Virus record (IMG/VR): IMGVR_UViG_3300024277_000010 | Span: 1-24,665 of that record | Source: a virus | DNA length: 24,665 nucleotides | Strand: one strand, 5' to 3' | Part shown: piece by piece, positions 5,457 through 22,338 of the stretch | How positions within the stretch are numbered: the stretch's first letter is position 1 | Layout of the letters: each line of letters begins with the position of its first letter | Translations under genes and position numbers: made by a program | Notes under the pieces: model-generated | The model's input: the letters and a program-made list of their open reading frames with translations, nothing else | Told to the model about the DNA's origin: nothing | The model's database searches: none

Positions 5457-5554
5457 GTTTTGAAGTAACACCTGCACCGGGTGTTTATTTCACTTTATAT
5501 CTCGGCATTGCCGAAGTTGCATTTTATAACGAAGAGGAATTAGAAGATGAGTGA
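5417..5554 (+). CDS. Small hydrophobic protein upstream of RNR (45 aa)
   Basis: An ATG at 5417, with GAGGA at 5401-5405 and GGGA at 5407-5410, opens a 45-residue frame beginning MSIAIRLLAGFTVGFEV and ending EEELEDE. Residues 3-34 are largely hydrophobic and interrupted by a TPAPG turn, so it may be membrane-associated or a tight beta protein. It overlaps the preceding gene by 40 nt and the RNR start by 8 nt and fills an otherwise empty gap between them, which supports it being real. Function unknown. Confidence 0.6.
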   Translation: MSIAIRLLAGFTVGFEVTPAPGVYFTLYLGIAEVAFYNEEELEDE

Positions 5555-7448
5555 ATTAGGTCTATACGAATCATTTATTGCTAAGAGCCGCTACTCACGT
5601 TTTCTTGATGACAAGAACCGTCGTGAACATTGGCCTGAAACTGTAGAGCGTTACATGAATTTCATTGACAAACATCTACAGAAGAAACACAGCTATGCTA
5701 TGGCTATGGACTTGAAGAATGAGTTGTACAATGCCATTCTAAATCGTGAAGTCATGCCATCTATGCGAGCAGTTATGACTGCTGGTGAGGCACTAGAGCG
5801 TGACAACACTGCTGGCTACAACTGTAGCTACCTACCTGTAGACGATGTTAAATCCTTTGATGAAGCCATGTACATCCTGCTATGTGGCACTGGTGTTGGT
5901 TTCTCAGTAGAGAGTAAATATGTCAACAAGCTACCTGAAGTCCCTGCAAAGATGTTTACTAGCGACACTACTATTGTTGTGGCTGACAGCAAAGCAGGTT
6001 GGGCCAAAGCCCTACGTCAACTCATTGCCCTACTGTATTCAGGGGAAGTACCGAAATGGGACGTTAGCAAAGTCCGTCCGGCAGGGGCACGCCTTAAGAC
6101 GTTTGGTGGTCGAGCTAGCGGCCCTAAACCCCTCACTGAACTCTTTGAATTTGTTACTAATAAATTTAAAGGTGCGTCAGGTCGGAAACTTACCAGCTTG
6201 GAATGCCATGACATTATGTGTAAGATTGGCGAGGTCGTGGTTGTTGGTGGGGTACGTCGGTCAGCGATGATTAGTTTGAGTGACTTAAGTGATGATAGGA
6301 TGCGACATGCCAAAGCTGGTCAGTGGTGGGAGCGAGAAAGCCAACGAGCACTTGCAAACAATAGTGCAAGCTATAATGAACGACCCTCAGTTGGGGAATT
6401 TATGTCAGAGTGGTTGGCGCTGTATCAGTCATACTCTGGCGAGCGCGGCATCTTCTCACGAGAAGCAGCTAAATCTACAGTTGCAAAACACGGAAGGCGA
6501 GACAGCAGCTATGATTTTGGGACTAATCCATGCTCCGAAATCATCTTACGTCCGTATCAGTTTTGTAACCTTACGGAAGTTGTCGCCCGAGACAATGATA
6601 ATGGAGAAAGTCTACAGCGAAAAGTTAGACTGGCCTCTATCCTTGGCACTTTCCAGTCTACTCTTACAGAATTCCCTTATCTAAGGAAAGTATGGCAGAA
6701 GAATACTGAAGAAGAACGCCTACTTGGTGTATCCATTACGGGCATCCTAGACTGCCCCATTTTGAACAACGTAAACGACGATGGTCTGTCATCACGCTTA
6801 GAAGAGCTACGTGACTTGGCTGTTGTTACTAATAAGGATTTTGCTAATGCACTCGGAATTCCTCAATCGGCTGCTGTTACGTGTGTTAAACCTTCTGGTA
6901 CCGTTTCTCAACTTGTTGATTCTGCCAGTGGCATTCATGCTCGTCACAGCAATTACTACATTCGCCGTGTGCGGAATGATAACAAAGACCCTATTACTGC
7001 CTTTCTACAGTCTCAAGGAGTACCTTCAGAACCGGAACACCTAAAGCCACATGACACCACTGTGTTTAGCTTTCCAATGAAGAGTCCTGATGGATGTATT
7101 ACTCGTGATGAGTTGGACAGCTTCACACATCTAAAGCTATGGCTAACCTATCAACGTCACTGGTGTGAGCATAAACCCTCCATCACTGTGTATGTTAAAG
7201 AGAAGGATTGGCCTTCTGTAGGTGCATGGGTGTGGGAACACTTTGATGAGATTAGTGGTATTAGTTTCCTACCTTGGGATGGTGGTACTTATAAGCAAGC
7301 ACCCTATGAGGAGATTGATAAAGCTACTTATGATAAGCTAGCAGCTACAATGCCTAAAGCTATTGATTGGGAACAGTTTGTTGAGTTTGACGACAACGTT
7401 GAAGGTGCTCAGCAACTGGCATGTGTAAGCGGTTCGTGCGATGTATAA
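5547..7448 (+). CDS. nrdJ: Adenosylcobalamin-dependent (class II) ribonucleoside-triphosphate reductase
   Basis: A 633-residue monomeric class II enzyme that reduces ribonucleotides to deoxyribonucleotides using a B12-generated thiyl radical, independent of oxygen. The active site is complete: the N-x-C-x-E motif NPCSE (N327, C329, E331) carries the radical cysteine, and C93 (GYNCSYLP) and C340 (QFCNL) are the redox pair. The C329-C340 spacing of 11 equals that of the Lactobacillus leichmannii enzyme. The C-terminal CVSGSC pair (C626, C631) accepts electrons from thioredoxin or glutaredoxin, and a glutaredoxin is encoded just downstream. It is about 100 residues shorter than the L. leichmannii enzyme, mostly N-terminal and between C93 and C329. 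ATG 5547 follows GAGGAATTAGAAG. No intein interrupts it. The phage must rely on host cobalamin. Confidence 0.95.
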   Translation: MSELGLYESFIAKSRYSRFLDDKNRREHWPETVERYMNFIDKHLQKKHSYAMAMDLKNELYNAILNREVMPSMRAVMTAGEALERDNTAGYNCSYLPVDDVKSFDEAMYILLCGTGVGFSVESKYVNKLPEVPAKMFTSDTTIVVADSKAGWAKALRQLIALLYSGEVPKWDVSKVRPAGARLKTFGGRASGPKPLTELFEFVTNKFKGASGRKLTSLECHDIMCKIGEVVVVGGVRRSAMISLSDLSDDRMRHAKAGQWWERESQRALANNSASYNERPSVGEFMSEWLALYQSYSGERGIFSREAAKSTVAKHGRRDSSYDFGTNPCSEIILRPYQFCNLTEVVARDNDNGESLQRKVRLASILGTFQSTLTEFPYLRKVWQKNTEEERLLGVSITGILDCPILNNVNDDGLSSRLEELRDLAVVTNKDFANALGIPQSAAVTCVKPSGTVSQLVDSASGIHARHSNYYIRRVRNDNKDPITAFLQSQGVPSEPEHLKPHDTTVFSFPMKSPDGCITRDELDSFTHLKLWLTYQRHWCEHKPSITVYVKEKDWPSVGAWVWEHFDEISGISFLPWDGGTYKQAPYEEIDKATYDKLAATMPKAIDWEQFVEFDDNVEGAQQLACVSGSCDV

Positions 7449-7458
7449 GGAGATTAAA

Positions 7459-7692
7459 ATGAATTTTGGACACGCTATTGATTTGTTAAAACAAGGTAGT
7501 AAAGTTGCTCGTGAGGGGTGGAACGGAAAAGGGCTGTGGTTAGAACTACAGGTTCCAGATAAGTATAGCAAGATGACCTTACCTTACGTGTACATTAACT
7601 ATCCATCGGATGCTGTAAATACACCAAACGCTAGAGTACCGTGGCTTGCTAGCCAAACCGACATGCTTGCTGAAGATTGGTTCGAGGTGTGA
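7459..7692 (+). CDS. DUF2829/Tad2-like anti-Thoeris protein
   Basis: A 77-residue protein matching the DUF2829 family: EGWNGKG at 19-25 and the C-terminal block VPWLASQTDMLAEDW at 60-74 are the family's hallmarks, as is the MNFGHAIDLLKQG start. The ATG at 7459 is set by AAGGAGA at 7447-7452; the in-frame ATG at 7441 is inside the RNR end. Family members characterised as Tad2 bind and sequester the cyclic ADP-ribose signal made by Thoeris TIR proteins and so block host immunity; some are reported to bind CBASS signals too. That activity is inferred for this protein by family only. It sits between RNR and its glutaredoxin, an unexpected place for an anti-defence gene. Confidence 0.88.
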   Translation: MNFGHAIDLLKQGSKVAREGWNGKGLWLELQVPDKYSKMTLPYVYINYPSDAVNTPNARVPWLASQTDMLAEDWFEV

Positions 7693-7693
7693 T

Positions 7694-7885
7694 GTGCGTA
7701 CACTAGTTGTATATACAAAAGATAATTGTCCTAACTGCGATGTTCTTAAGGCACGACTAAAGCGTGAAGAGGAAGCATATGTAGAAGTCAACATTGGTAA
7801 AGACATTACTCGTGAGGATTTTCTAGCCCTCTATCCTAATGTACGTGCAGTGCCGCACATGGTGTTTGAAGACCGTGGCGAGTGA
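7694..7885 (+). CDS. Glutaredoxin-like protein (probable RNR electron donor)
   Basis: A 63-residue thioredoxin-fold protein starting at GTG 7694 (MRTLVVYTKD), with GAGG at 7684-7687. The dithiol active site is CPNC (C12, C15) and the cis-proline loop is AVPHMVF (P54). Small glutaredoxins of this type reduce the C-terminal cysteines of ribonucleotide reductase, and this gene lies one gene downstream of the phage enzyme. It stops right after the third strand (VFEDRGE), lacking the usual GG-containing turn and final helix, so it is about 15 residues shorter than typical. Its last 11 nt overlap the sigma factor start. Confidence 0.85.
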   Translation: MRTLVVYTKDNCPNCDVLKARLKREEEAYVEVNIGKDITREDFLALYPNVRAVPHMVFEDRGE

Positions 7886-8447
7886 GGATGAGTTACTAAT
7901 AACTAAAGCGTTAGCAGGGGATAGCAAGAGCTATTCCTTGCTATTTGCTAAGTATTGGAAGCGAGTGTATATGTTTCTTAGGAAGCGTGTACATGACAAC
8001 CACACAGCAGAAGAACTTACTCAGGATGTATTTGTGTCAGCATTCAAATATCTGCACACATACAAGAAAGAGTTAAGTGGATTCTATACTTGGCTATGTA
8101 CAATTGCCATCAACACGGCCTCTAAACGGCCCTACAAGGCGTTTAATTTAGAAGTCGAGGGGGTGACTAGTGTGACACCTGAAACCCTGTTTGAAAGCAA
8201 TCAAACACTTAGTCTTCTTATGAACGACTTGTTTAAGTTGCCATATAAACAACAACGTGCAGTATGGCTAAAACTATATGAGGGATTGTGTTATACTGAG
8301 GTTGGCAACTTGCTAGGTGTAAGTCCCGGCTACGCAAAGAAGCTGGTACACACTGCAAAGAAACGTTTAAGGAGCATTAATGACGAACGACGAAAGCTAT
8401 CGGATGATGGAGGCGCTAAGGCGCTATGTGCGTCTGAAAGTGTATGA
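7875..8447 (+). CDS. ECF-like RNA polymerase sigma factor
   Basis: A 190-residue protein with the two-domain layout of extracytoplasmic-function sigma factors. Region 2 spans about residues 20-85 (TAEELTQDVFVSAFKYL, then FYTWLCTIAINTASKR, matching the core-polymerase and -10 binding helices). Region 4 spans about 112-167, with a helix-turn-helix YTEVGNLLGVSPGYAKKLV for -35 recognition. Regions 1, 1.2 and 3 of housekeeping sigma factors are absent. The start is set at GTG 7875 because ECF proteins start near this point; the ribosome binding site is weak, so coupling to the glutaredoxin gene is likely. It would direct host RNA polymerase to phage promoters, probably middle or late genes. Its final 68 nt overlap the next gene. 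No anti-sigma factor is recognised. Confidence 0.87.
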   Translation: MASEDELLITKALAGDSKSYSLLFAKYWKRVYMFLRKRVHDNHTAEELTQDVFVSAFKYLHTYKKELSGFYTWLCTIAINTASKRPYKAFNLEVEGVTSVTPETLFESNQTLSLLMNDLFKLPYKQQRAVWLKLYEGLCYTEVGNLLGVSPGYAKKLVHTAKKRLRSINDERRKLSDDGGAKALCASESV

Positions 8448-8547
8448 AACTGACAAGACAATGGAAATAGTGTTGCAATTCCGTACAGAAGACGGTAAAG
8501 TTCATCAACTGTGTAACAGTTTTATGGAGAAACCAAATGGAAATTGA
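8380..8547 (+). CDS. Small protein overlapping the sigma factor end (55 aa)
   Basis: ATG 8380 is preceded by AAGGAG at 8369-8374, a strong ribosome binding site inside the sigma factor gene. The frame encodes 55 residues: a basic helix (MMEALRRYVRLKVYE), a strand-like MEIVLQF and a TEDGKVHQL part. It overlaps the sigma gene by 68 nt and the next gene by 11 nt. The position directly after the sigma factor and the small size raise the possibility of a sigma partner, but nothing in the sequence shows that. Confidence 0.7.
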   Translation: MTNDESYRMMEALRRYVRLKVYETDKTMEIVLQFRTEDGKVHQLCNSFMEKPNGN

Positions 8548-9121: not shown

Positions 9122-9150
9122 AAAAGAAGGGGGCTTAATTGCCCCCTTTG
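9121..9150. terminator. Bidirectional intrinsic terminator between convergent arms
   Basis: A perfect 8-bp stem AAGGGGGC / GCCCCCTT with loop TTAATT lies at about 9127-9148. On the minus strand it is followed by an unbroken T-run (the A-run just after 9120 on the plus strand), and on the plus strand by TTTG. It sits exactly between the last plus-strand gene and the last minus-strand gene, so it can end transcription arriving from both arms. The minus-strand side has the better U-tract. Confidence 0.85.
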
Positions 9151-9702
9151 TCATTCCCCAATTTTCTTCTGTAACAACCCGTATACTTGCGCTACTGTAC
9201 GAGGTTTTTTAGTTTTTGAGTCATAGAATATAGACTTATTAGCTTTATACTGGTCTGGAGTAACCACATCCTTTGCTAGTTTCTTAGGCGCAGCACTAAG
9301 GAATTTCTTAGCACCAGATACACCCAAGAAATGAGCAGCGTATAAATCAGTGTCTGTAGGATCAGTACCTAAGTGTTGTTTAAGTTGTTTCTTATTGTCT
9401 TCAGTAAACTTCTCTACAACAAGTTTAGATTTAGCAGGGTCAAACCTATCATCTAGCTTCAATCCCAATCCATACTTCTTGTTATATTCTTTCCAAGTAC
9501 CCTCAGTAAATTGATATAGGCCAGCGGCGCTACTAGTAGCAGCTTTAGCTTCAGCCTTACCACTGCTTTCAGCCATAGCTAGGCGTTGATAGTAGTCTGG
9601 CTTAGCAGGCTCTGGTGCAGGAGCAGGGGTAGTAGAAGCAACTTGTTGTGTTTGTTGCTGTCCCATACCAATGAATTTTTGAAAGTCTTCCCAAATACTC
9701 AT
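9151..9702 (-). CDS. Lytic transglycosylase (SLT-type virion protein)
   Basis: A 183-residue protein starting at ATG 9702, directly after the stop of the upstream gp15-like gene. A low-complexity Gln/Thr/Pro/Ala linker (about 14-34) precedes an SLT domain: YYQRLAMAESSGKAEAKA with the catalytic glutamate E45, then GLYQFTEGTW at 61-70, the classic goose-lysozyme-like signature. The rest (to 183) fits a muramidase-like helical bundle. In T7 this activity is the N-terminal domain of gp16, which opens the peptidoglycan during DNA ejection; here it is a separate gene. A role in ejection rather than lysis is inferred from its place with internal virion genes. Confidence 0.9.
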   Translation of the reverse strand: MSIWEDFQKFIGMGQQQTQQVASTTPAPAPEPAKPDYYQRLAMAESSGKAEAKAATSSAAGLYQFTEGTWKEYNKKYGLGLKLDDRFDPAKSKLVVEKFTEDNKKQLKQHLGTDPTDTDLYAAHFLGVSGAKKFLSAAPKKLAKDVVTPDQYKANKSIFYDSKTKKPRTVAQVYGLLQKKIGE

Positions 9703-9703
9703 A

Positions 9704-11971
9704 TTACTGCCCAATAACATCAACACCGTCAGCTTCAAGCTGAGATACAGCATCGTCAATACTCATCTTTCTTTCTGCTGCAAACCTAGCTACGTCAGCC
9801 ATATTTGCAGTGCGCTTACCAGAAGGTTGTTGAGTAGCCGCCTGTACAAACTCTTGTGTACGCCCCTCACTTACAGTTTTACCTTTAGTAAATGCAGAGA
9901 TAAATTCTTTTCGTAGTTCTTGTGTAGACATACCTGTTACATCAGCTTGAACACGTAGCATCTCGTCAATGGCAGATAAAGCATTGTTCACTGCTGAAGG
10001 TTGGTTAGCTACACGAACATAGTTGTCATAAGAACGGCGTTCAGTAGGTGTAAGATTTGCACGAGGTACACGATTAGCTACAACACGTAGTGGAGCATTA
10101 CCAGTAACATCTGCAAACACAACTTTAGATGCGTTAACATCCAGTCCGGGAACACCTTGTACAAACGCTTTTACATACTCGTCATAAAACTGCTTAGCTT
10201 TATCGCCGTGAGCCTGCGTACCATAGATGTATTGGTTAGCAGCCACTTTAACTTGTTCTGCTACAGCTTGCTTATCTGTAGGAGATAGGCTACCAAGAAC
10301 AGCTTTAGTTGCAACTTGACCAGTCTTCAAATATTGTTCAGCATTAGCTGGTTGTTGGAATGCAGATACAACATAGTCAGCTACATCCTGTACCTTATTC
10401 TCAGACATCCCACCTTGGGCTAAATCTACAATCTTCTGTTGTTTTTGTTTATGTGTAGTTAACGAGGCAGTAGCATCTTGTTTATTTGCAGGAATAGCAG
10501 CAACAGGAGTTTCCTTATATTTATTCATACTACCCATTAGTTTCACAAACTCATCTGTAGATACACCAGACAAGATTTGTTCACGTACACGGTTAGCATG
10601 GTCAATGATTGAGGCAGCACGAGGGTAACGAGCACGAGCATCGTTGTATCCTTTGCTATCACCCGACATACCTAGCTGAGCTACAATCTCTGCTGGAATT
10701 CCTAGACTTCTCACCATAGTGTCTACAATGTTTAAACGACGCTGTAGTTCAGTTTCTCTATCGTCCTTAGTAGCAATACCAACTAGGAAGCTAGTAGGAT
10801 TCTTAGTATAAAATTCACGCTGAGAAGTGTACCAATCGTTAAGAACGCCCATAGCAGTTTTAACTTTATCTGCATCAGCAGGGGTGCTACGTGCTTTAAG
10901 ATTTAGTTCATTAACAGCAGTGTTATATTGTGTATCTAATAGCTGCAACACCTCAGTCCCTGCTTTATCTACAATAGCTTTATATTGAGCACTGTTCTTA
11001 ATAGCGTCAGGAATACTACCAGAAGCAATTTGAGCACGAGTAATACCTAGTGCTGATAATTGTGCATAAGTAGATGCGTTCTTAGCAATTAAATCACTTT
11101 GAAATCCAGCAACAGTAATATTAGAAAAATTAAGAATATTATTTCCACCAAGTTCCAAAGCTTGTTTAGCATTTTCTTTAGATGTACCAGCAGCAACAGA
11201 GGCATTAGCCAACTCCATACGTAGGCTAGGGTCTACAGCATTAAACTCTGCAAGGGCTTGTGTTTGACTTACACCACCTTTAATACGGTCAGCAACATAT
11301 GCTTTTTGTAATTCACCTTGAATTTGCTCTTGACGCTTAGCTTGTTCTGCACTTTGTTTTTCAATAAAGTTTACATCCTCATACAGCTTAGCTACAGAGT
11401 ACATATCCAAGCCACGCTTACCTGTAACTTGTTCAGACACACTGCGAAATTCATCAGCAAGCATAGGATGCTCTGCAATGTATTTCTTTAGCATTGTTTC
11501 AGAACGTAGCATAAACTCATTGTAGCGACTAGGCATAGAATCTCTAGCTGCTGCAATGCGCTGCTGTTCAGAACGATAGCGAGATACAATCTCATTCTCT
11601 TGTTTAGTGCCAAATGCCTGTGCTAGTGTCTTAGCTTCTTCAGGATCAGAGCCAGTTAGAAGAGATGCTGCACGATATTCATCTACAAGATTAGGTATGT
11701 TATTACGTTCTTGTTGAAAAATAGTTTTAGCTGTAATATCAGCCGCCTTAACCTCATCCATTTCTTTCTGAAGTTGACTGACACCAGCTTGTAGTTCACC
11801 CCGTAAAGCTTCTGTCTGTGTAGTTTTATAAATATCTAGGCCAGCTTGTGCAACACCCTTAATGGCTGTAGCAATACCCTGAGCTTGCATCTGCATTCCC
11901 CTAGCAAGTGTAGAGGGATCAGCCATAGCTGGTTCAATACTGCGAGTAATGTCTTGACGGTATGTTGCCAT
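9704..11971 (-). CDS. gp15-like internal virion/ejection protein (755 aa)
   Basis: A 755-residue, mostly helical, Ala/Gln-rich protein with no membrane segments or enzyme motif, starting at ATG 11971 with GGAGAAG upstream. The length (T7 gp15 is 747 residues), composition and neighbourhood among gp14-like and gp16-like genes point to the internal core protein that forms part of the DNA-ejection conduit. The start follows the stop of the 1787-residue gene directly. Similarity is based on size, position and composition; I cannot show homology from the sequence alone. Confidence 0.8.
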   Translation of the reverse strand: MATYRQDITRSIEPAMADPSTLARGMQMQAQGIATAIKGVAQAGLDIYKTTQTEALRGELQAGVSQLQKEMDEVKAADITAKTIFQQERNNIPNLVDEYRAASLLTGSDPEEAKTLAQAFGTKQENEIVSRYRSEQQRIAAARDSMPSRYNEFMLRSETMLKKYIAEHPMLADEFRSVSEQVTGKRGLDMYSVAKLYEDVNFIEKQSAEQAKRQEQIQGELQKAYVADRIKGGVSQTQALAEFNAVDPSLRMELANASVAAGTSKENAKQALELGGNNILNFSNITVAGFQSDLIAKNASTYAQLSALGITRAQIASGSIPDAIKNSAQYKAIVDKAGTEVLQLLDTQYNTAVNELNLKARSTPADADKVKTAMGVLNDWYTSQREFYTKNPTSFLVGIATKDDRETELQRRLNIVDTMVRSLGIPAEIVAQLGMSGDSKGYNDARARYPRAASIIDHANRVREQILSGVSTDEFVKLMGSMNKYKETPVAAIPANKQDATASLTTHKQKQQKIVDLAQGGMSENKVQDVADYVVSAFQQPANAEQYLKTGQVATKAVLGSLSPTDKQAVAEQVKVAANQYIYGTQAHGDKAKQFYDEYVKAFVQGVPGLDVNASKVVFADVTGNAPLRVVANRVPRANLTPTERRSYDNYVRVANQPSAVNNALSAIDEMLRVQADVTGMSTQELRKEFISAFTKGKTVSEGRTQEFVQAATQQPSGKRTANMADVARFAAERKMSIDDAVSQLEADGVDVIGQ

Positions 11972-14900
11972 TTATTCTTCTCCGAATGGGCTTGTTACTA
12001 GTAAACGATTTTTGTGTGAGGACATTTGTGTTGCCCACTTAGCAAATGCTTCTCTACCTACTGTGTCGTAAGAAGTCGTGTCTTTAATGAGTCGTTTAAT
12101 GAATTGTCTATCTGATTCAGGTAGAGGTGCCATAACTGCTTCAGCAGCAGAATAGTTTTGTTTCATACCTTCAGTGTCGCCATTTAGATAGGCTTTACGA
12201 GCGAGACCTTCTAAGCGCATAACACTATCAGCATATTTCTGCATGGTCTTTGCATATGCTTGTTTAGATGCAAACACTGTACCACTTTCATATGCTTCAG
12301 TGCTTTGGAAACCTAGTCCTTGTGCAATGAGTTCTGTCCAAGATAGGTTTGCTAGTGGATCACCACGTTTATTAAGCACCATGCCATTAGCATGATAGGC
12401 CCAATATGCCTTGTCAATGTTACGCCATGAAGATGCCATTGTTGCACCAGCAGCCGATAACGTTGAAGCAAAATCTCCTAGTGTCCACTCGTCTTTGTAG
12501 CGATAGTCTAGGAAAATTTCAGGTAGTTCTAGAATGGCTGTTAGTGTTGATCCAGTTGGGCCAGCTAACTTCTTAACGTCTACCTTCTCACCCTTAAACA
12601 AATCAAATATTGCATCGCCTAAATCTTCGTACCACTGAATAGACGATAGACGGCTACCTAAAGCAATGTTTGTACGCTCACCTGTTAATAGTTCACCAAC
12701 AGTTGAAATGATACCCGCAAGAGCACCTTGAGTTAGATATTGTTTTTGAGTCTCACTAAGTTCACCATTCATCTTATCGCCTAGCCATTCTTCAATGAAG
12801 TCTGGTGTAGCGTTATTAGTAATACCATATAGTAGGTAGCTACCTAGTGTCAAACGTACAGCATCTGCTGTGCTTAGTGATGGTGACTTTTTACCTACCA
12901 ATGCACCAGTCTGTGCAATGAGGTTAGTGCCCAAACGGATGTTATGTTGTAAGAACTGTAAAGGAATACCTAGAACACCTTTAGAGATACGAGCATCATT
13001 AGCTCGTGTCATGTTCATTGTCAAATCATCTGCACGTTGAACAATGGTTTGTAGTGCAGCATCAGTGTTCCATGCTACACCGGGATTAGCTTCCATAAAC
13101 TCACGACGAGCAATGTCAAATGCACCAACACGGTTAATCTCTTCACCTTTGTTGAAGAACATCATCTGTGCTTGGTTAAATTTAGCACTACGTTTAGCAA
13201 AGATGTTTAGAGCACCATCAGCACCGTTGTAGGTGGAGGATGCACCAATGTTATCTAGCAAGCCAACACGTTTAATGGCTTCAGCTACATCAGCAAACTC
13301 ATTTGCATCCATCCCCATTTTCTTAGCAATTCCAGAACTCTTGTGAACAAACTTCCATACAGAAGGATTATCCGAAGTCATGGCAGCAAGAATAGGACGA
13401 ATAGAGAATGCAGCTTTAAGCCCATGTTTAGGACTCATAGATGCAGCCAACAACATACCTGAAGACTGCACGATAAGCTGTGCTGGAGAGAATAGTCCAA
13501 GCATCAGTGTGGAGTTAGCACCCTTGGCCCAATTGATTAGATCGGTACGGCGTAGCCACTGACCAACATGTGAGAAGCCGGGAACGTTAATGTTACTAGT
13601 AAGGTTGTTAACAGCGTGTTGAATCAGCTTTTCATCAATACTCTTAACACCTAACTGAGTAAGAATAAAGTCTTTTGTAGCTAGCATCTGCTTAGCTTTA
13701 CTATCAGAGAGAGCATAACCACTAACGTTGTTTACCACATTAAAGAACACTTGTTCAGCACTTTTAGCGTTAGCTTTATCAATGTCTGAAATAGTGTCTT
13801 CAAAGGTGTTATACCAACGTTCAATGGAGTTTCTACGCCACTCGTTAAGTGCAGCAAATCTAGCTGTGTTGCTAATCTCAGCTTCAAGACTTTGTAGTGG
13901 GCCAAGTGTTTCTAGACGTGTGCTACCTGTGCTAATAGATTTAATACCAGCTTCAGTACGGCCTGACCAGAATACACGGCCTTGTTCACCTTCCATAGAG
14001 CCAATGCCTGTTACATCACGGAAGAAGTTATCTTCAATACGTGTGTAGTTAAACACAGCTTTAGCTCCATCAAACTCACCGTTATTAATACGCTGTGCTA
14101 ACTCAGCAGCATCGGTCTCATAAGACGTTAAGAAACGAGACACATCTTCAGCTTTAACTACATTACCAGCCCTACGGAATTCTAGTAAGTCATTAAACCC
14201 TTTAACATATTGAGAAGCATTATTTTCTGATACAGCAGTGCGGAATGCGTAAGACACATCCTGTAGCTCGTCATCAATGAGTTGCTGCCCTTTAATCTTG
14301 ATAAAGTATTCTTCAGTATAAATGCGACTATACGCACCGTCTACACGGCCTACAACAGAAGTAATGTCTCCTGTCTTAACCTGAGAAGGTGGCACAGCAA
14401 TACGAGTAATAGAGCCTTTACGACCCTCTACTGTTTGTGCTTTAGCATATTCAAATACTTGTAGACCACGAGCATCGAACTCTTTAGCTTTATCTTCAGT
14501 GAGAGTTACATACTTTTTATTTTCTACATCATATACTTTTCGGCCTGTTACTTCAGCAAGTGTTTTACTCTTAGCAGGGCCACTAAACACACCATCATCA
14601 CCCATACCAACAAACACGCTGATATACCCTTTAGCAATAAAAGCATTAGCTGCTTCTTTATTCTTTAGGTAATATTCAACGTTCCGCATTGTACGGAAAG
14701 CGTAATAGGCTTCAATCTCTTCATCTTTACGTAAACCAGCAGTTGCTAGCTCAACAAGATTCATGTCTCGCTTTAGTGTCTCTGTCTGCACTAAAGCAGC
14801 ATTAACCATATCAATTTGCTTAGCATCTAGTTTGTCAAAACTAGCCTTAATAAAGTCACTCTGTACCTTACCGTAGCGTGTACGCTTGTACATTGAAAGC

Positions 14901-17335
14901 AAAGCAGGACTATAAATGGAATTAACTGACGCTAGGCGAGGATTAATCTTACCTAGAGTTAGGTGCATCTGGTCTAGTTCTTCTTGGCTAATCTTACCAA
15001 TGTCAGCAGTGTATACAGGCATGTCTGCCTTCTGACGCAGGTAGTAACCTGTAGGAGCAGTAGATGCTTCAATGTCTGCTGTAACACGTGCAGCTACAGC
15101 CGACTCTAGAGAAGCTAGGTCAGCATCAAGTTTAGCGTTAGGTAGGTAAGGCTTAATAACACGATTAACATCCAACATAGACGTTAGCGCACCTTGACCA
15201 CCAATGTCAATTTGACGTGGTAGTGTGATGCGTAGTCCTTGCTTAGTCATCTCTTCGTTAAGACCAAACCACTCAGATAGAGCAGTGTCTTTATTACCAA
15301 ATCCAAGAAGCTGTTTAAATGTCTGCCATAGTTCAGTTAGTAACGTAGTATTTTTATATTTAATACTATCTAAAAATGCTGCTACTTTAGGTAGTTGATT
15401 AATTGACCAAAGACCAGCAGTTGCAAACTCTTCTGTGTTTTTAGTTAAATATTCCAAATATCCTTTAAGTTCTTTATCTTTAACTTTAGTAATTTCTTTA
15501 ATTACAGCTTCACGTAGATTATCCATTTTAGTAGTAATTTTACCTAACTCACTACTGGGATTTAATTTACCGTATTTAATTTTATGACTAGTAACAGCAT
15601 GAATAAGCTCATGACTAAATACGTTACTATCCTTATTGCCCCGATACATTAGCAGCGTATCTGTAGCAGGGTTATATGATGCCCGACCATCACCAATGTT
15701 TACAACTACCCTAGTTTCTTTAGGTAGTAGTTTAATAATTTTATCAATTACAAATTGTTCTGGTTGAGTAGCTGTCTCACGTACTGCTGTCCACGCATCC
15801 TCAACATTTCGAGTACGACGAGGGTATACTCCAGCTTTACTAGCTTCTGGTAGTTTACCACTAGGCATTACTAGTAGTGGTAGTTGCTTTTCCATGTTAG
15901 CAACTGTACCTGCATTACTCATACGAGGTGCAAAATTAGCTTCTTGAATTTTATTGCTAAGTTCTGCAATGCGAGTATCTAACTCATTAATAGCAGCTTT
16001 AATTTCTGTTTCTTTACCAAGTACAGGTACTACTTCTAACTCACCACGTTTAATGTCTTTATAATAGGCGAGTGCTTCTTCAGCCGTAGCAAATGGTCTA
16101 CCACCACTATCACCGTAAGTAACGTCAATAGATAGTCTACCTTGTTCGGGTAGAGCAGTTACTTTACTAGCTACAATAGATGAATTATTTTCTTTAGAAT
16201 AAATTTGTTCTAGACGCATCTTAGTTGCAAGCACTTCTTCAGGCTTAGCACCACCACTATATAGTGTAGCATCTAAGTCTTTTAGAGTTGCGTCTAGACG
16301 TTTACGTAGGTTATCTTGCACACCAGAAGATGCACCATCTAACTCTTTAGACAATAGGGTTTTGGCGCTAATAGAGCCTTCTAGAGCGTCTTTTGGAGAT
16401 ACGTTAAGGGCAGACTTACCATCTGTAAGTTGATCGGCTATTTCCTTAGCTACTGTTTCTTCAGCCCCTACTTTACGAGCAAGGTTAATTGCTTTAGTAG
16501 TCCCCATTACAGCACGTAATGAACCACCTAAGAATGAACCAATAGATAGTAGGTCTAAAGACGAAAACACAGCATCTACCGTAGTAGAACTGCTATAACC
16601 ATTTAATGCTGCTTCAAAGAAGCGGCGAGTGTTTGCTTCACCGATTACAGGAGCTAGGCGTTTAGATAAAGAGTTAATTACTTTAGGTCTGTCATCAGGA
16701 GAAACAATTGTTAGTGTTTCTAGCAGTGCATTAACACCCGACTCAAAAGAGTATGCTCGATTGCCAGTGTAACCAATCTTTTCAATTTCTTCGTTAAGAA
16801 TAGGGGTAAGACGACCTACATCTGCTACAGATTGTAAACCACTAAAACTCATTGCTAGTTGTGCGCCATCACTACGACCAGTAAGACTAGCAGCAGCAAC
16901 TTCCAATGCAGTACGTGTAGCAACATTATCTTTGTATAGTTGAGCAAGCCTAATAACTTCATCTTTAGGTTTACCCATTGAAATACTAATGCGCTCTAAT
17001 GCTTCTTCAGAACTATCTTGCACATCATCATAGAATGATTCTGGCTTAACAATTTCAGCCTCTGCAATAGCTTTAAAGCCTGCTTCTACGGCAGGCGCAT
17101 TATTAGTCTTAGCTAGTTCTAGTGTTGCATTCTTAAGAATTTGTAAATTATCTTGACGGACAAGTTTAGCACGTTCAGCCGCTACATAAGCAGGGCCTAG
17201 CGTAGCAGTTTCTTTCAGAACATCGTTAACTCTTCCACTATCAGCGCCATACAACACAGCTAGTGTGTGGTTTGCTACAGGAACGGATGCGTAGTCTTTT
17301 TGTTCTGTTGTTTCGTAGATGTTAAACTCTTCCAT
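11972..17335 (-). CDS. gp16-like giant internal virion protein with HExxH metallopeptidase domain
   Basis: A 1787-residue protein, larger than T7 gp16 (about 1318). It starts at ATG 17335 after AAGGAAT. Residues 1-350 are helical; residues about 510-650 contain a zincin-like domain: HELIH at 575-579 (H575, E576, H579), preceded by strands (VVVNIGDGRASYNPATD) and followed by NTEEFATA with E635/E636 as a possible third ligand. The C-terminal half has long helices with hydrophobic stretches (for example around 1265-1310, SPAQLIVQSSGMLLAAS) and GIPLQFLQHNIRLG, typical of phage ejection and large polyvalent proteins that cross the cell envelope. The transglycosylase domain of T7 gp16 is absent here and encoded separately. 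The DNA for residues about 375-680 is clearly lower in GC than the flanks. Role in ejection is inferred from position; peptidase activity from the motif. Confidence 0.85.
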   Translation of the reverse strand: MEEFNIYETTEQKDYASVPVANHTLAVLYGADSGRVNDVLKETATLGPAYVAAERAKLVRQDNLQILKNATLELAKTNNAPAVEAGFKAIAEAEIVKPESFYDDVQDSSEEALERISISMGKPKDEVIRLAQLYKDNVATRTALEVAAASLTGRSDGAQLAMSFSGLQSVADVGRLTPILNEEIEKIGYTGNRAYSFESGVNALLETLTIVSPDDRPKVINSLSKRLAPVIGEANTRRFFEAALNGYSSSTTVDAVFSSLDLLSIGSFLGGSLRAVMGTTKAINLARKVGAEETVAKEIADQLTDGKSALNVSPKDALEGSISAKTLLSKELDGASSGVQDNLRKRLDATLKDLDATLYSGGAKPEEVLATKMRLEQIYSKENNSSIVASKVTALPEQGRLSIDVTYGDSGGRPFATAEEALAYYKDIKRGELEVVPVLGKETEIKAAINELDTRIAELSNKIQEANFAPRMSNAGTVANMEKQLPLLVMPSGKLPEASKAGVYPRRTRNVEDAWTAVRETATQPEQFVIDKIIKLLPKETRVVVNIGDGRASYNPATDTLLMYRGNKDSNVFSHELIHAVTSHKIKYGKLNPSSELGKITTKMDNLREAVIKEITKVKDKELKGYLEYLTKNTEEFATAGLWSINQLPKVAAFLDSIKYKNTTLLTELWQTFKQLLGFGNKDTALSEWFGLNEEMTKQGLRITLPRQIDIGGQGALTSMLDVNRVIKPYLPNAKLDADLASLESAVAARVTADIEASTAPTGYYLRQKADMPVYTADIGKISQEELDQMHLTLGKINPRLASVNSIYSPALLSMYKRTRYGKVQSDFIKASFDKLDAKQIDMVNAALVQTETLKRDMNLVELATAGLRKDEEIEAYYAFRTMRNVEYYLKNKEAANAFIAKGYISVFVGMGDDGVFSGPAKSKTLAEVTGRKVYDVENKKYVTLTEDKAKEFDARGLQVFEYAKAQTVEGRKGSITRIAVPPSQVKTGDITSVVGRVDGAYSRIYTEEYFIKIKGQQLIDDELQDVSYAFRTAVSENNASQYVKGFNDLLEFRRAGNVVKAEDVSRFLTSYETDAAELAQRINNGEFDGAKAVFNYTRIEDNFFRDVTGIGSMEGEQGRVFWSGRTEAGIKSISTGSTRLETLGPLQSLEAEISNTARFAALNEWRRNSIERWYNTFEDTISDIDKANAKSAEQVFFNVVNNVSGYALSDSKAKQMLATKDFILTQLGVKSIDEKLIQHAVNNLTSNINVPGFSHVGQWLRRTDLINWAKGANSTLMLGLFSPAQLIVQSSGMLLAASMSPKHGLKAAFSIRPILAAMTSDNPSVWKFVHKSSGIAKKMGMDANEFADVAEAIKRVGLLDNIGASSTYNGADGALNIFAKRSAKFNQAQMMFFNKGEEINRVGAFDIARREFMEANPGVAWNTDAALQTIVQRADDLTMNMTRANDARISKGVLGIPLQFLQHNIRLGTNLIAQTGALVGKKSPSLSTADAVRLTLGSYLLYGITNNATPDFIEEWLGDKMNGELSETQKQYLTQGALAGIISTVGELLTGERTNIALGSRLSSIQWYEDLGDAIFDLFKGEKVDVKKLAGPTGSTLTAILELPEIFLDYRYKDEWTLGDFASTLSAAGATMASSWRNIDKAYWAYHANGMVLNKRGDPLANLSWTELIAQGLGFQSTEAYESGTVFASKQAYAKTMQKYADSVMRLEGLARKAYLNGDTEGMKQNYSAAEAVMAPLPESDRQFIKRLIKDTTSYDTVGREAFAKWATQMSSHKNRLLVTSPFGEE

Positions 17336-17347
17336 CTTATTCCTTGG

Positions 17348-17755
17348 TTACTTTTTACGTAAAGCACTTGCTACATCGCCTACTGCGCCAAAAATAGTAG
17401 CCGTAGATTGCCACTGAGCAGCATCTGCTGCTGCACTGGTAATTGCTGTGTTTTCTTTAGCCACATCAGCCATATAACTTACATTACTGGCTAATTGAGC
17501 ACCAACACTAGATGTACCACCAGCTAGAGCACTACCACCCATACCACCTGTTTGAGCAGCTACGTTAGTCATAGACGCTTGGGCAAGTCGAGCTTCACGA
17601 ATTTGTTGTCGAACAGAACGAACGTTTTGAATTTCCGCACGACGTTGTTCAGCTTCATATTGTCGTTGTGTAGCTTTTCCTGCTTGATAACTACTGTAAG
17701 CAGAAGCACCTGCTGTTCCCACTGCAATATACCCTAAAGTTACTGGATCACACAT
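17348..17755 (-). CDS. gp14-like internal virion protein
   Basis: A 135-residue protein starting MCDPVTLGYIAVGTAGASAY, the form typical of T7 gp14-like internal core proteins. A Gly/Ala-rich, weakly hydrophobic N-terminus is followed by a charged helix (QRQYEAEQRRAEIQNVR) and a QTGGMGGSALAGGTSS segment. In T7, gp14 goes into the outer membrane on infection and forms the pore for DNA ejection. It starts at ATG 17755 with AAGGA upstream, its A overlapping the previous stop by one base (TAATG). It is somewhat shorter than T7 gp14. Confidence 0.87.
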   Translation of the reverse strand: MCDPVTLGYIAVGTAGASAYSSYQAGKATQRQYEAEQRRAEIQNVRSVRQQIREARLAQASMTNVAAQTGGMGGSALAGGTSSVGAQLASNVSYMADVAKENTAITSAAADAAQWQSTATIFGAVGDVASALRKK

Positions 17756-18036
17756 TATAATTCCTTCACCATGATTAAGTCAGTTTCTGTTTCAGTGTGT
17801 TCTTTAAATCCAAGTCGTTTTTGAAACACTCGTACACTATCGTGTTCTTTTTTAATTTGCGTAAATACTTTATCATATCCTTCTTCACGCAATGCTTGTA
17901 ACGTAGCAGCCCAGTTATCAAATGTATCTTTATAAGATGATTTTGTAAATGTACGCAACTCACCGTATACAATAGCAACATCATCTCTAAAATCTAAATA
18001 AAGTGTGCAAGCACTGTTATCAATAATTTTAAACAT
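17755..18036 (-). CDS. GNAT-like small protein in the gp13 position
   Basis: A 93-residue protein with AGGAG before its ATG at 18036. The C-terminal part (ALREEGYDKVFTQIKKE, then VRVFQKRLGFKEHTET) has the arrangement of the last helix and strand of GNAT acetyltransferases, where the residue set around R-x-x-F-Q-K-R-L-G-F mimics the typical end of the fold. The N-terminal half has alternate hydrophobic strands. The full acetyl-CoA binding motif (Q/RxxGxG/A) is not visible, so it could be inactive or structural. T7 has gp13 in this place, and related phages often carry a gene annotated as acetyltransferase here. Confidence 0.55.
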   Translation of the reverse strand: MFKIIDNSACTLYLDFRDDVAIVYGELRTFTKSSYKDTFDNWAATLQALREEGYDKVFTQIKKEHDSVRVFQKRLGFKEHTETETDLIMVKEL

Positions 18037-20251
18037 TGGTAGCTCCTACGAATGTTCCTGTCCAACCTACAATCTTCATATCTTTACCAGCTTGTGCTGT
18101 ATATTTGAATTGTACAGCTTTACCTCTGCCACGTAATTTATTCTTACTAATAACTAGTGGATAACCATCATCAAATGTGTCTTCACCACTAGCAAAGAAT
18201 GGGCGTAACTGTCGATAGACTTGTACTTCATCAGCCCACTTACCGGGATAACCATTGTCAGTGAAGTCCCACCTACTTTGCATTAGACAACCACTCTGAT
18301 TTAGAGGAATAGCGTCCTCATCAAATGCAGTTTCAGTGCGCTTCATAAACACTGTCAAATATTGTCCAGTCTTAGAACGAGCAGGGCCATTACCACCCAT
18401 GTTATAGCCAGTAATAAAATATGCTGGCATTTCAACACCAGTGTTACTATAGCTATACCAGTCTTTAAACTTAGTAGTGTTCTCACGATCATTAACAAAG
18501 TCTGCAAATGTTAATGAGTAGTTGTTACTGGTAACTGGATGTAGACAAACAATCTTGTACACCTTCTCAGTGCCCCGAATAGTTGGGATAGTTGCTACAA
18601 CATCATCAGTAGATGCAATAACATCGTCACTACCAGCAATAACTTCATAAATTTCACCAGCACTCACTGTCTCTTTAGTAGTCTCAATTGAAACAGGAAT
18701 AACACCAGTTGTGGTGTCTAGGCTAAACCAATACCATGCATTAAGGCGTAGATCGAGGGCCAACACAGTGTTTTTATTGAATCTACCAACGCTGGTAGAA
18801 GTGCTGTCTGTGTTTGAATATAGCCAATAAATTGTTTTGTTAGTAGCATTGTAGGAACCCTCAGCGTATAGTTTGCCAAGAACAGGAATGTCTTGATAGA
18901 ATGTTTTAATAGCTTGATCGCTAGTATTCTTAGCACTATACTCTACAGAGTTAGTAGCTTGTACTACATAAATACCAGACGTACTCCAGTAGAGTAAAGT
19001 ATCTTCAACTTGCACTACACTCTTACTGCCTACACAACCCACAGTTGATACACGCTCTACTGAATAACTAGCGGCAGTGAACCCTTGGTCAATGCCTGAA
19101 ATAAACCATACACCGTTAGTAGCTAGCACCATAATGCCACGACCTAGTGGCTGTAGTCCTACAATTTCACCAGCTTCAGGAATCTCAATGGTGCCACCAT
19201 CATCGTCTTCTAAGTCACTTAATACTTCAGATGTTGGGTCATTAGTTTGATAGCACTTACCTACTTTAGTGAATTCATCTAACACTTGGCTAAAGAACAC
19301 AGTACCTAGCAAATCAGAACTAGGCATACCTGCATACCATGCCCTACCTGCAAAGAATGCACACTGCTTAGGAGAATATGTTACATCAGCTAGTGGGTCA
19401 ATAACGTAATGCCCTTTAGGAGCCGGGGAGTTACCAAAGTCTTGTTTGTTTAAAAATGATGCGTCAAAATTATCGCTAGTATCTTTACCATAAATCCAAC
19501 TCTTTGTGTTAGCTGGATATTTACCATCTTCTACATCAAGAGAACCGCCGTTAGCTGTGCGGTAGGCATCAATCTTTTCATCAGTCCAACCTTGGTTATA
19601 TAGATTGTACTTAACATCTGCAATGTCAATACCTAGTGCCATCCACTCTGCACCAGTATATTCTGCATCAACAGGAATAATGTTACCACTGCTATCTACT
19701 AGGGGCTTACCTTTAAAGTTACGAATTTCTAAAGCAATGGCAGACACACTAATGGTGTCTGTAGATGCGTTGTATGTAATTACAATTGGCTTAGTATTCT
19801 GGCTAGTTACAATGAGTTTACCGTAGGTAGGAGCATAACTACATGCAGCAGTACCTTCAATTTCAGTGTTACCAGTTGCTTTATAGCTGTTTAGATTTAC
19901 TGTAAATGATTTTTTATTAGAGCTAACACTACCTGTAGCAGCTTCGTAGAAATGTAAAATAGGCCCAGTCTGAACTACAAAGAAATCAAGGTTGCCATTA
20001 CCAGCAACCGTGTTCCATAGTCCAGACGTAAAGGCCCATAAGTCTTTATTGTCGCTACTAATAGCACTAGCATACAAGGAATAACTATCTTCATAGTCTA
20101 ACCCTGTACGGCGTTCAACTGTACCGTCTACTTGCGGTACTACGTTAACACCTTCTTTCCAACTATTTTCAGGTGTAATAAAATAGCCGCCCTCAGTATT
20201 GAGGCCACCTACAAAAGTAAACGCATCTTTTACTGAGGCTTGAACTGCCAT
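18029..20251 (-). CDS. gp12-like tail nozzle protein (tail tubular protein B)
   Basis: A 740-residue beta-rich protein (T7 gp12 is 794), with AAGGGG upstream of ATG 20251. The start (AFTFVGGLNTEGGYFITPENSWKEGVNV, broken into blocks at about 11-36) is the recurrent opening of this family, in which GGLN-TE and the VNVVPQVDGTVERRTGLDYE block recur. The order after gp11-like genes and before gp14-like ones fits T7 layout. It would form the hexameric nozzle at the tail tip that contacts the host surface. It overlaps the next gene by 8 nt. Confidence 0.9.
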   Translation of the reverse strand: MAVQASVKDAFTFVGGLNTEGGYFITPENSWKEGVNVVPQVDGTVERRTGLDYEDSYSLYASAISSDNKDLWAFTSGLWNTVAGNGNLDFFVVQTGPILHFYEAATGSVSSNKKSFTVNLNSYKATGNTEIEGTAACSYAPTYGKLIVTSQNTKPIVITYNASTDTISVSAIALEIRNFKGKPLVDSSGNIIPVDAEYTGAEWMALGIDIADVKYNLYNQGWTDEKIDAYRTANGGSLDVEDGKYPANTKSWIYGKDTSDNFDASFLNKQDFGNSPAPKGHYVIDPLADVTYSPKQCAFFAGRAWYAGMPSSDLLGTVFFSQVLDEFTKVGKCYQTNDPTSEVLSDLEDDDGGTIEIPEAGEIVGLQPLGRGIMVLATNGVWFISGIDQGFTAASYSVERVSTVGCVGSKSVVQVEDTLLYWSTSGIYVVQATNSVEYSAKNTSDQAIKTFYQDIPVLGKLYAEGSYNATNKTIYWLYSNTDSTSTSVGRFNKNTVLALDLRLNAWYWFSLDTTTGVIPVSIETTKETVSAGEIYEVIAGSDDVIASTDDVVATIPTIRGTEKVYKIVCLHPVTSNNYSLTFADFVNDRENTTKFKDWYSYSNTGVEMPAYFITGYNMGGNGPARSKTGQYLTVFMKRTETAFDEDAIPLNQSGCLMQSRWDFTDNGYPGKWADEVQVYRQLRPFFASGEDTFDDGYPLVISKNKLRGRGKAVQFKYTAQAGKDMKIVGWTGTFVGATNV

Positions 20252-20260
20252 TATTTCCCC

Positions 20261-20527
20261 TTAAACTGTAGCTTCTTCTACATCAATATTTCGTTGTTTT
20301 GCAACTGCTAGGATTCGTTCTTTACGTGTAAACAAACCTTTTAGTTCATCAGGCACTTGACCTCGCATTGAGTATCGGCAACTATATAGTCCCATAGGAG
20401 TACGCTCAATGATGAGTTTATTAACAATGCCTTTTTCTTCTCGTTCTTCTTTTCTCTCTTTAGCAGCTTCTTTTTTAGCTAAAGATTTTTCCATTACTTT
20501 GTCATAAGATGATTTACTTGCGTCCAT
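20261..20527 (-). CDS. Small charged protein between tail genes (88 aa)
   Basis: An 88-residue, highly charged protein with a long K/E-rich helix (KVMEKSLAKKEAAKERKEEREEKG, about 10-33), then a strand part (VNKLIIERTPMGLYSCRY) and a charged end. It begins inside the gp11-like gene (14-nt overlap) with GGTGA upstream. The position between gp11-like and gp12-like genes suggests a tail or assembly factor. Not recognised beyond that. Confidence 0.6.
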   Translation of the reverse strand: MDASKSSYDKVMEKSLAKKEAAKERKEEREEKGIVNKLIIERTPMGLYSCRYSMRGQVPDELKGLFTRKERILAVAKQRNIDVEEATV

Positions 20528-21221
20528 AATTCACCAATGTGTTATATTTAATTTCACCGTTTTCATTGCGCCATGCATCATTACGCATTGCCATACGGCC
20601 CCTTGTTGCTTTCCGTTCTTCACGAGCATTGCTTTGTTGTTTCAAGTTAACAAAGGCTTGACTCTTAGCTTCAGCTAGAAGAGTTGGAAAAAACTTTTCT
20701 GGAATGTTGGGTACAAACGTATCAATGTGGCTCCATGATGCTTGCTGTGTACCGTATACAACACTCTTAGAAGCTTGTAGCGTAGTATCTACAATACTGT
20801 TATAGCCATCAAACACAATGTATGTATCATCATAGCTAGTCCAATAAGTTGGGTCTTGATTGATAACATATCCACTACTATTGACAACACCAGTTTGTTC
20901 TACACGATTTGTAATGATGTCGTTAAATGTCTCTGGATCAACCCACTGCACTTCTTTCTTATTATACTTAATCCATTTAATCTTATTCCATGTGTCTGGA
21001 ATTTTCATTTTAGTTGGATTACTAGTATCTCCCAGTGCTTGAAGAGCGCCTAGTGTAAATAGAAAAGGCCAGTCACGCTGGCTAAGTAGTTCAAAATAGG
21101 CTTCTTTAACAAGTTCTGCAACTTGTACAGCTTCTACAGTTTCATCAATAGAATCTACAGGATCAGAGTCTAGTGCAGATAGGATGTTTTGCACCATGTC
21201 TAGGAGTGTCATCTTAGCCAT
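20514..21221 (-). CDS. gp11-like tail adaptor protein (tail tubular protein A)
   Basis: A 235-residue protein with AAGGAG before ATG 21221. The layout fits the T7 gp11 family: an N-terminal helical part (MTLLDMVQNILSALDSD; VQVAELVKEAYFELLSQRDWPF), a beta-rich middle (SGYVINQDPTYWTSYDD; YIVFDGYNS) and a C-terminal helix with AKSQAFVNLKQQSN and Arg-rich end. This adaptor ring joins the portal to the nozzle and closes the head after packaging. T7 gp11 is 196 residues, so this one is a bit longer. Confidence 0.9.
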   Translation of the reverse strand: MAKMTLLDMVQNILSALDSDPVDSIDETVEAVQVAELVKEAYFELLSQRDWPFLFTLGALQALGDTSNPTKMKIPDTWNKIKWIKYNKKEVQWVDPETFNDIITNRVEQTGVVNSSGYVINQDPTYWTSYDDTYIVFDGYNSIVDTTLQASKSVVYGTQQASWSHIDTFVPNIPEKFFPTLLAEAKSQAFVNLKQQSNAREERKATRGRMAMRNDAWRNENGEIKYNTLVNYGRK

Positions 21222-21230
21222 ATATACTCC

Positions 21231-21812
21231 TTAACTTGGATCAACTAGTAGGCAACTTAGACTAGCTTCTTTAGGTGTAATGTTAGTACCAGAAGATGTA
21301 CCATCGCCGCCAACATACATAGTAAGAACATCACCAGCAGCTAGAGTTACATATCCATTAGCAGCTAAGTGAATAGTGTCTACGTTATTAGTAGGTTTCT
21401 TAGCGTATACTTTACGAGTAGATGGAGTACCGTTTACAGCATAGTGAAAGTTATATGCTGCGCCACTAGAAATTGCAGCAGTTTCAAAAACAATCCAGAA
21501 GTCTAGTTGATATACACCTGCTTGAGTAATAGTGAATTGTCCGTTAGCAGCAGATGGCGTAATGTTCTGGTATCCATTGGCTGTCCATGCGCCAGTGGGA
21601 TTTAACTTAGCTAAAGCACTAGATGCAGCTAAAGTTTGAGATGTGCTACTACCTGAAATGTATAAGTCACCGTATGCGTGACCAGCGACATATTGCCATA
21701 CGCCACTACCACTACCATTTGCTACATATACTTTACCTGAAGCGGCTGAAGCAACTCCCTTTGGTTCATGTAGCTGACTATCTGGTAATGCGCTATGTTG
21801 CACTTGTGCCAT
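21231..21812 (-). CDS. Head-fibre-like virion protein with C1q/TNF-like end
   Basis: A 193-residue Gly/Ser/Ala/Thr-rich protein with GGAG before ATG 21812. The N-terminal ALPDSQLHEPKGV (8-20), followed by SGKVYVANGSGSGVWQYV, is a motif I have seen at the N-terminus of capsid-attached fibres or decoration proteins. From about 60 to 190 the pattern of short strands (FTITQAGVYQLDFWIVFE; VTLAAGDVLTMYVGG) resembles a C1q/TNF-like jelly roll, which forms trimers. The place next to the capsid and decoration genes suggests a head fibre rather than a tail fibre. Carbohydrate or host-surface binding is possible. Confidence 0.65.
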   Translation of the reverse strand: MAQVQHSALPDSQLHEPKGVASAASGKVYVANGSGSGVWQYVAGHAYGDLYISGSSTSQTLAASSALAKLNPTGAWTANGYQNITPSAANGQFTITQAGVYQLDFWIVFETAAISSGAAYNFHYAVNGTPSTRKVYAKKPTNNVDTIHLAANGYVTLAAGDVLTMYVGGDGTSSGTNITPKEASLSCLLVDPS

Positions 21813-21841
21813 TTATATCTCCAAAAGGGAAAAGAGGAAGA

Positions 21842-21858
21842 GGCTGAACTAGTCAGCC
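21842..21858 (-). terminator. Stem-loop between decoration and fibre genes
   Basis: The bases GGCTGA and TCAGCC form a perfect 6-bp stem around the loop ACTAG. On the minus strand the stem is followed by a pyrimidine-rich run (TCTTCCTCTTTTCCC), not a pure U-tract, so it may be a weak terminator or a 3'-end stabiliser for the capsid/decoration message. Confidence 0.45.
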
Positions 21859-21879
21859 AACTCCCCCTTATTCAGTTAC

Positions 21880-22338
21880 TTATAGGTAACGAACTACGAT
21901 GGTAGCAGTACCGGCAGTGAATGTGCCAGTGAAGGCTACGTCTAGAGTATCAGCAGAAGCGTACACTTTGCCTAGACCACGGTTGGTAGCAGCATCACCA
22001 ATTGCATATGCACCAGCAGCACGAATAGTAGCACCAGCAGTTAGGTTAGCAGTAGCACCTTGAGTAGCTGAAATCCAGCCATCAGCATCGCTACCATCAC
22101 CTAGCTGTACGTCAGTACCACCAGCCCATGCAGTGCCTACTTTAAGAACTACGTCTAGAACTACAGCACCTGCGGGGATGTCAATGACAGCGCCAGAAGA
22201 TTGATAGGTAATTGCTAGATGAGCTTCTTTTACAGCACCGTCGGTTTCATATACGCCAGCAACATTACGCTCAGGGTAGTTGGGGCCGAAACCAACAACT
22301 AGACCGTCAGCGTTAGTCCAAGTAGATTTACGAGTCAT
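21880..22338 (-). CDS. Probable capsid decoration protein (152 aa)
   Basis: A 152-residue Ala/Gly/Thr-rich protein with AAGGAAT before ATG 22338. It is predicted, from alternation of polar and small residues, to be all-beta (VIDIPAGAVVLDVVLKVG; LDVAFTGTFTAGTATIVV). The lack of charged and aromatic residues is typical of head-surface proteins. Lying immediately after the major capsid gene and before the fibre gene, a decoration or minor capsid role is inferred. No firm family match by eye. Confidence 0.55.
   Translation of the reverse strand: MTRKSTWTNADGLVVGFGPNYPERNVAGVYETDGAVKEAHLAITYQSSGAVIDIPAGAVVLDVVLKVGTAWAGGTDVQLGDGSDADGWISATQGATANLTAGATIRAAGAYAIGDAATNRGLGKVYASADTLDVAFTGTFTAGTATIVVRYL

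Follow-up and report, generated by a model that had tools for sequence, protein, structure and literature searches.

The locus and the virus

The stretch of DNA considered here, referred to as the window, is an entire virus record of 24,665 bases but a fragment of a genome; a 37,718-base record (G001) contains it at 99.99% identity. Genes for replication and nucleotide metabolism make up an early arm on one strand, virion genes a late arm on the opposite one, and in the window the two meet head-on at about 9.1 kb. G026 is among the relatives in which the arms run outwards from some 1.2 kb of mostly noncoding DNA, and the 127-base end repeats of G026 and G028 suggest that these two records are complete. 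The features relevant to what follows are:

5547-7448, + strand: class II ribonucleotide reductase (RNR; Pfam), upstream of the sigma factor gene in the early arm
7441-7692, + strand: Tad2-like Thoeris anti-defence ORF (PF11195, E 1.8e-23), between RNR and glutaredoxin
7646-7885, + strand: glutaredoxin (Pfam), overlapping the start of the sigma factor gene
7875-8447, + strand: gene for the 190-aa ECF sigma factor, close to the early-arm end, with region 2 at about residues 23-82 and region 4 at about 121-165
8380-8547, + strand: conserved 55-aa ORF overlapping the 3' end of the sigma factor gene, a candidate sigma partner
9127-9148, - strand: terminator-like hairpin (8-pair stem and T run) at the late-arm end, where the arms converge
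9151-22338, - strand: remaining late-arm genes (tail, internal virion proteins, transglycosylase/lysin), whose predicted promoters are A and B
22382-23338, - strand: major capsid gene, downstream of promoter B and after the scaffold gene
23349-24077, - strand: scaffold gene, the first gene downstream of promoter B
24131-24099, - strand: predicted late promoter B, GGTAACGTTT (-35, 24131-24122), 13 nt, CTATAAGGC (-10, 24108-24100), 22 nt before the scaffold ATG

The capsid protein is 43-47% identical to those of Siovirus and Veravirus (SIO1, ICBM and CRP phages) and the tail protein about 30%, and with homology to Zobellviridae extending to the capsid, portal, terminase and tail genes, and two arms on opposite strands, the capsid and tail proteins place the phage near or in that family. 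'T7-like', the term of the preliminary description, is only loosely right, the virion genes being Zobellviridae-like, on the minus strand, in one of two converging arms. Two minor candidates elsewhere came to nothing: an Rfam match to isrG in G026 was below threshold and was disregarded, and where a tRNA was suspected by eye in G029, ARAGORN found none.

An ECF sigma factor maintained by phages

The sigma frame is open throughout, and its GTG start, kept as such in most relatives, overlaps the glutaredoxin stop by 11 nt. To judge by its sequence, the product is an ECF (group IV) sigma factor. Pfam recognizes Sigma70_r2 (E 2.8e-11) and Sigma70_r4_2 (E 4.8e-6), both above cut-off, and the protein matches PHROG 1740, 'RNA polymerase sigma factor' (E 9e-24), with a score under the cut-off of the NCBIfam RpoE model. 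Neither region 1.1 nor region 3, nor any further sigma domain, was found by Pfam in the 190 residues. The nearest solved proteins are AlgU and E. coli sigmaE. Domain by domain, the top Foldseek matches of the AlphaFold model are ECF sigma factors (AlgU at 2e-8), and its superposition on region 2 of sigmaE gives an rmsd of about 2 A; the model consists of helices with a loose linker at 86-98, and at a pTM of 0.41 the domain arrangement is uncertain. Pfam, PHROG and the fold matches thus bear out the initial identification of an ECF-like factor with well-formed regions 2 and 4 and without housekeeping regions.

Relatives are encoded at at least 50 IMG/VR loci, 49 of them at 44-100% identity, because of which the gene is regarded as a maintained phage gene. 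Mean column identity in an alignment of 24 of them is 65%. The phage copies form one group in the tree (support 93/84), and within this clade the genes of other relatives are intact, 42-74% identical to that of the window, and situated at the same place after RNR; the RNR-sigma order near the end of the early arm is conserved in every examined relative that possesses the factor. In G065 the apparent absence of the gene comes from a break of the contig between RNR and DUF3310. The best bacterial matches, at about 30% identity over the full length, are from Gallionella and other Betaproteobacteria, which might be taken as weak evidence pointing to the host.

A cognate anti-sigma gene near that of an ECF sigma factor is usual, not universal. 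None was recognized beside the gene in question, and the neighbouring 55-aa ORF has no known family or fold: Pfam and PHROG gave no match and a PDB fold search no clear one, the predicted fold being alpha-beta-beta-beta with a pLDDT of 88. Of 21 sigma-bearing genomes, 19 have this ORF immediately behind the sigma gene; of eight records without a sigma gene, none has it. The statement in the preliminary description that the factor has 'no obvious partner' needs a caveat as regards this conserved neighbour.

Search for a phage RNA polymerase

A single-subunit phage RNA polymerase controlling the virion arm had been named at the outset as what would speak against a late switch by the sigma factor. 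None was found in the relatives: PF00940, the T7-type polymerase family, is absent from 36 related records and from five further records of the clade (some of these records being fragments), and from 13 named Zobellviridae or similar phages, with T7 itself as positive control giving E 1e-110. A study of a Klebsiella phage from this family describes Zobellviridae as being without a polymerase and reports no sigma factor (PMC9960094).

Two predicted late promoters

The first late gene, with its tail-fibre N-terminus, was collected from 45 loci. De novo expectation maximization on the last 110 nt upstream of it in 33 non-redundant sequences yielded GGTAACaTTT-N13-CTCTAAGCa, with a log-likelihood of 347 against 99-116 for shuffled sets; an attempt with 220-nt upstream regions had locked on a conserved G-rich element, and it was the rerun with 110 nt that gave the promoter. 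The two-box ECF promoter consensus from the relatives reads GGTAACrTTT-N13-CTCTAAGC. A two-box matrix was built from these A sites only, with the lineage under test left out and B sites never in training, and in whole genomes it finds A and one other place: site B, which is on the late strand, 20-27 nt ahead of the scaffold gene. Site B is present in the scaffold-upstream gap of 22 of the 23 clade records that contain this gap, that of G019 being weak (8.5 bits). Every one of the 39 matches above 17.5 bits in the 896 kb of 28 sigma-clade records is A or B, to be compared with five per 1.97 Mb of simulated sequence, at a cut-off picked after the data were seen. The preliminary description had called for a shared motif in front of the virion arm and possibly within it, and what has come to light is one ECF-type site ahead of the first late gene and another ahead of scaffold and capsid.

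In the window, site B reads in full GGTAACGTTT-TTCAATAAGCCTA-CTATAAGGC and scores 21.2 bits with the site-A matrix, the next best match in the 37.7-kb genome having 13.0 and the simulated maximum being 15.8. It is also the sole match in the window, and an exact one, to GTRACRTTT-N14-TMTAAG with up to one mismatch allowed (expected 0.00); a pattern with a different, wrong spacing has chance matches only. Site A of the same phage is found on L289 (G050), a contig with a 100% identical terminase, and reads AGTAACGTTT-N14-CTATAAGCA, 72 nt before the gene. Its spacer is one base longer than that of site B, and the two sites have in common an unusual CTATAAG.

In the window phage and some relatives, promoter B includes a short inverted repeat, AGCC..GGCT, before a T run (24119-24099, minus strand). 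The repeat is not conserved in G022-G026 or G016, and since relatives such as G026 are without it, a terminator does not explain the conservation of site B. The sigma clade also has a strongly conserved noncoding element, CCCACCCACCAC ... GTTTAAAACGATTTTAAGGGGGGTAGAAGGC, in the divergent region upstream of promoter A, at 250-400 of L289 for instance; it is perhaps an origin or a regulatory element.

Relatives without the sigma factor

Profile searches detected no sigma domain in G028, G029, G045, G067, SIO1, MEP402, ctOsX528 or PQ867844. G028, G029 and G045, in which the RNR-to-lysin junction is complete and there is no sigma gene, are without A and B sites, and 329 kb of sigma-less relatives hold a single match to the matrix above 17.5 bits, at 44832 in G029, that is neither A nor B. 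Sigma-bearing genomes with the relevant gap on the contig all have the site, G019 only weakly.

Some relatives have sequences of other types. GGAACTT-N16-TCTAA, which is RpoE-like, is present in G028 at 41351-41378 (plus strand) and 40784-40811 (minus strand) and in G029 at 16948-16975 (plus strand); the two in G028 are the only ones in 1.64 Mb of the relatives' loci, the G029 site being outside those loci. Host sigmaE possibly reads these sites. Upstream of the first late gene in L213/L214 and L215/L224, where sigma-bearing phages have the ECF site, good sigma70-type promoters, TTGACA-N17-TATTAT and TTGACA-N17-TAAGAT, can be made out by eye; G045, to which L215 belongs, has no sigma gene.

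Covariation of sigma factor and promoters

Of 16 core positions, 0.8-1.1 differ between the A and B sites of one genome and 3.2 between genomes, and the concerted change has a permutation p of 0.002 over six strict lineages. There is also a counterpart in the protein. The recognition-helix residue aligned with S172 of sigmaE is K where the box is GTAAC (the window phage, G013, G056 and G022-G026) and N where it is GTGAC or GTGAG (G002, G004, G009-G011, G016, G019 and G051); G017 and G031 have an unrelated helix and a TGTAAAC box. The identity of this residue accordingly varies together with base three of the GTRAC core, and the tree requires at least three changes of it. As there are only three to four independent changes, the covariation is supportive, not conclusive, and the p of 0.008 from the lineage table presupposes nine independent lineages. 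In sigmaE, S172 contacts base -34 and R171 the pair at -31 (PMC6713349). The base varying here is -33, which adjoins the one contacted by S172 and is not the same base; the position of R171 is a nearly invariant lysine in the phage factors. The sigma/promoter combinations among the relatives form a natural series: GTAAC with K, GTGAC with N, TGTGAG with AQN, and TGTAAAC with the unrelated helix.

A proposed late switch and its alternatives

Because the sites are restricted to the clade, A and B change together and the helix residue covaries, the phage sigma factor very probably directs late transcription. The reading preferred here, to which we assign a probability of roughly 0.88, is that it commandeers host core RNA polymerase and brings it to late promoters A and B. 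Its basis is in sequence: the sigma domains, the lack of a T7-type polymerase, the two sites, their clade restriction and the covariation. The initial interpretation, a late-gene switch through an ECF sigma factor and host polymerase, is supported at the sequence level.

The order of events can be envisaged as follows. Host polymerase would first transcribe the early arm, presumably from sigma70-type promoters; scans with the sigma70 consensus of the G026 divergent region and the sigma-lysin junction were at chance level, and so early promoters were not identified. The sigma factor, made from the end of the early arm, would then bind host core polymerase, and its appearance would, on this presumed timing, switch on the virion arm. 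Initiation at A, before the first late (tail fibre) gene, is predicted to cover the late arm, that at B to add scaffold and capsid mRNA, and the hairpin at 9148-9127 would end the late transcript. No A- or B-type site is near the sigma gene, so that positive feedback on it is not predicted, unlike in phage 7-11.

A more elaborate version can be entertained, unlikely as it is when taken whole. In it the sigma factor and the 55-aa protein would form a dedicated two-protein late switch, the latter aiding in displacing or outcompeting host sigma70, and in addition the lineage would have swapped late promoters read by host sigma factors, of the GGAAC or sigma70 type seen in sigma-less relatives, for ones read by a captured RpoE-like factor of drifted specificity.

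Could a host ECF factor of the RpoE/AlgU type instead read both late promoters, with the phage factor doing some other job or merely helping? The spacing and the -10 box of the late-promoter motif do resemble those of the RpoE consensus, and GGAACTT-N16-TCTAA is present in two sigma-less relatives, in the divergent region ahead of their first late gene. However, the -35 box is GTRAC and not GGAAC, the lineage-specific changes in A and B track the recognition helix of the phage factor, and GTRAC sites are absent from sigma-less relatives, all of which makes this reading quite improbable. Somewhat less probable again is that the factor serves mainly to reprogramme host genes, as an auxiliary metabolic or stress regulator, leaving late genes to host sigma70. 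Its gene adjoins metabolic genes (RNR, glutaredoxin, ThyX and MazG, by Pfam), and some contigs without a known sigma factor have, by eye, sigma70-like boxes before the first late gene; against this, the predicted sites occur nowhere but ahead of late phage genes, and they covary with the sigma factor. That the gene is a recent and functionless passenger can be given hardly any credence, as nothing favours it apart from absence from some relatives, and one clade of intact genes, at 42-74% identity and in the same place after RNR, contradicts it.

Comparison with known systems

The closest parallel in mode of action is the Salmonella phage 7-11, a podovirus without its own RNA polymerase, whose gp47 is a proven late sigma factor acting in vivo and in vitro at GTAAtg-(16)-aCTA upstream of late genes (PMC8948821). 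Both phages are without a T7-type polymerase of their own and have a sigma gene in the arm opposite the late one and two-box late promoters, predicted ones in the present case, and the motif described here, GTRACR-(17)-[T/A]CTAAG, is strikingly close to that of 7-11. They differ in virus family, in the number of promoters (two predicted here, eight there), in the absence here of a site near the sigma gene and in its position after RNR, and similarity to gp47 consists of a weak region 2 match only. gp36 of phiEco32 directs host polymerase to middle and late genes from a single box, tAATGTAtA, with a helper, gp79, of which 7-11 has no homologue (PMC8948821). Like the factor treated here, gp36 (held in PDB 9m7y) is a phage ECF sigma of PHROG 1740; unlike it, gp36 has no recognizable region 4 and has a single-box promoter, the similarity being again weak and limited to region 2. 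Only part of region 2 aligns with gp36 and gp47, and in the tree the present factor is on a branch separate from both, so that it would resemble them in mode of action and is not classed as their homologue.

RpoE and AlgU are the best relatives in sequence and fold, and have the same promoter layout with a TCTAA-like -10 box. They are set apart by full-length identity of about 30%, by a -35 box of GGAAC instead of GTRAC, and by the lack of a recognized anti-sigma gene beside the phage factor.

Within the same virus family, the Pseudomonas phage IME180 (Zobellviridae, Paundecimvirus) has an unannotated sigma-like CDS at 32847-33353 of MF788075, a 'hypothetical protein' with Sigma70_r2 at E 3.4e-15 and PHROG 1740 at E 4.5e-37. 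This gene differs in its position, which is not after RNR but between primase/helicase and DNA polymerase, in having no Pfam region 4 and in its weak similarity to the clade described here. It led to the dropping of the notion that sigma factors are confined to the uncultivated clade, and because of it sigma use in Zobellviridae is taken to be wider than this clade. At the same place as in IME180, the Klebsiella phage Asterion (PV891806, 16397-16876) has a weak sigma match.

Significance

A literature search, with many subscription journals outside its scope, brought up no paper that connects Zobellviridae to a sigma factor encoded by these phages themselves, and the lineage, regulon and coevolution record were found nowhere in it. 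This suggests that what is new here is the lineage, the putative two-promoter regulon, the apparent coevolution of sigma and promoter, and the linked 55-aa ORF as a possible partner.

Zobellviridae are without an RNA polymerase, and for one large uncultivated clade a late switch can now be proposed, consisting of a sigma factor and two predicted promoters. The series of sigma/promoter pairs that its members provide is a test bed for how the specificity of ECF sigma factors changes. As for the virus itself, it would very probably switch on its particle-building genes with the machinery of its host, and not with an enzyme of its own.
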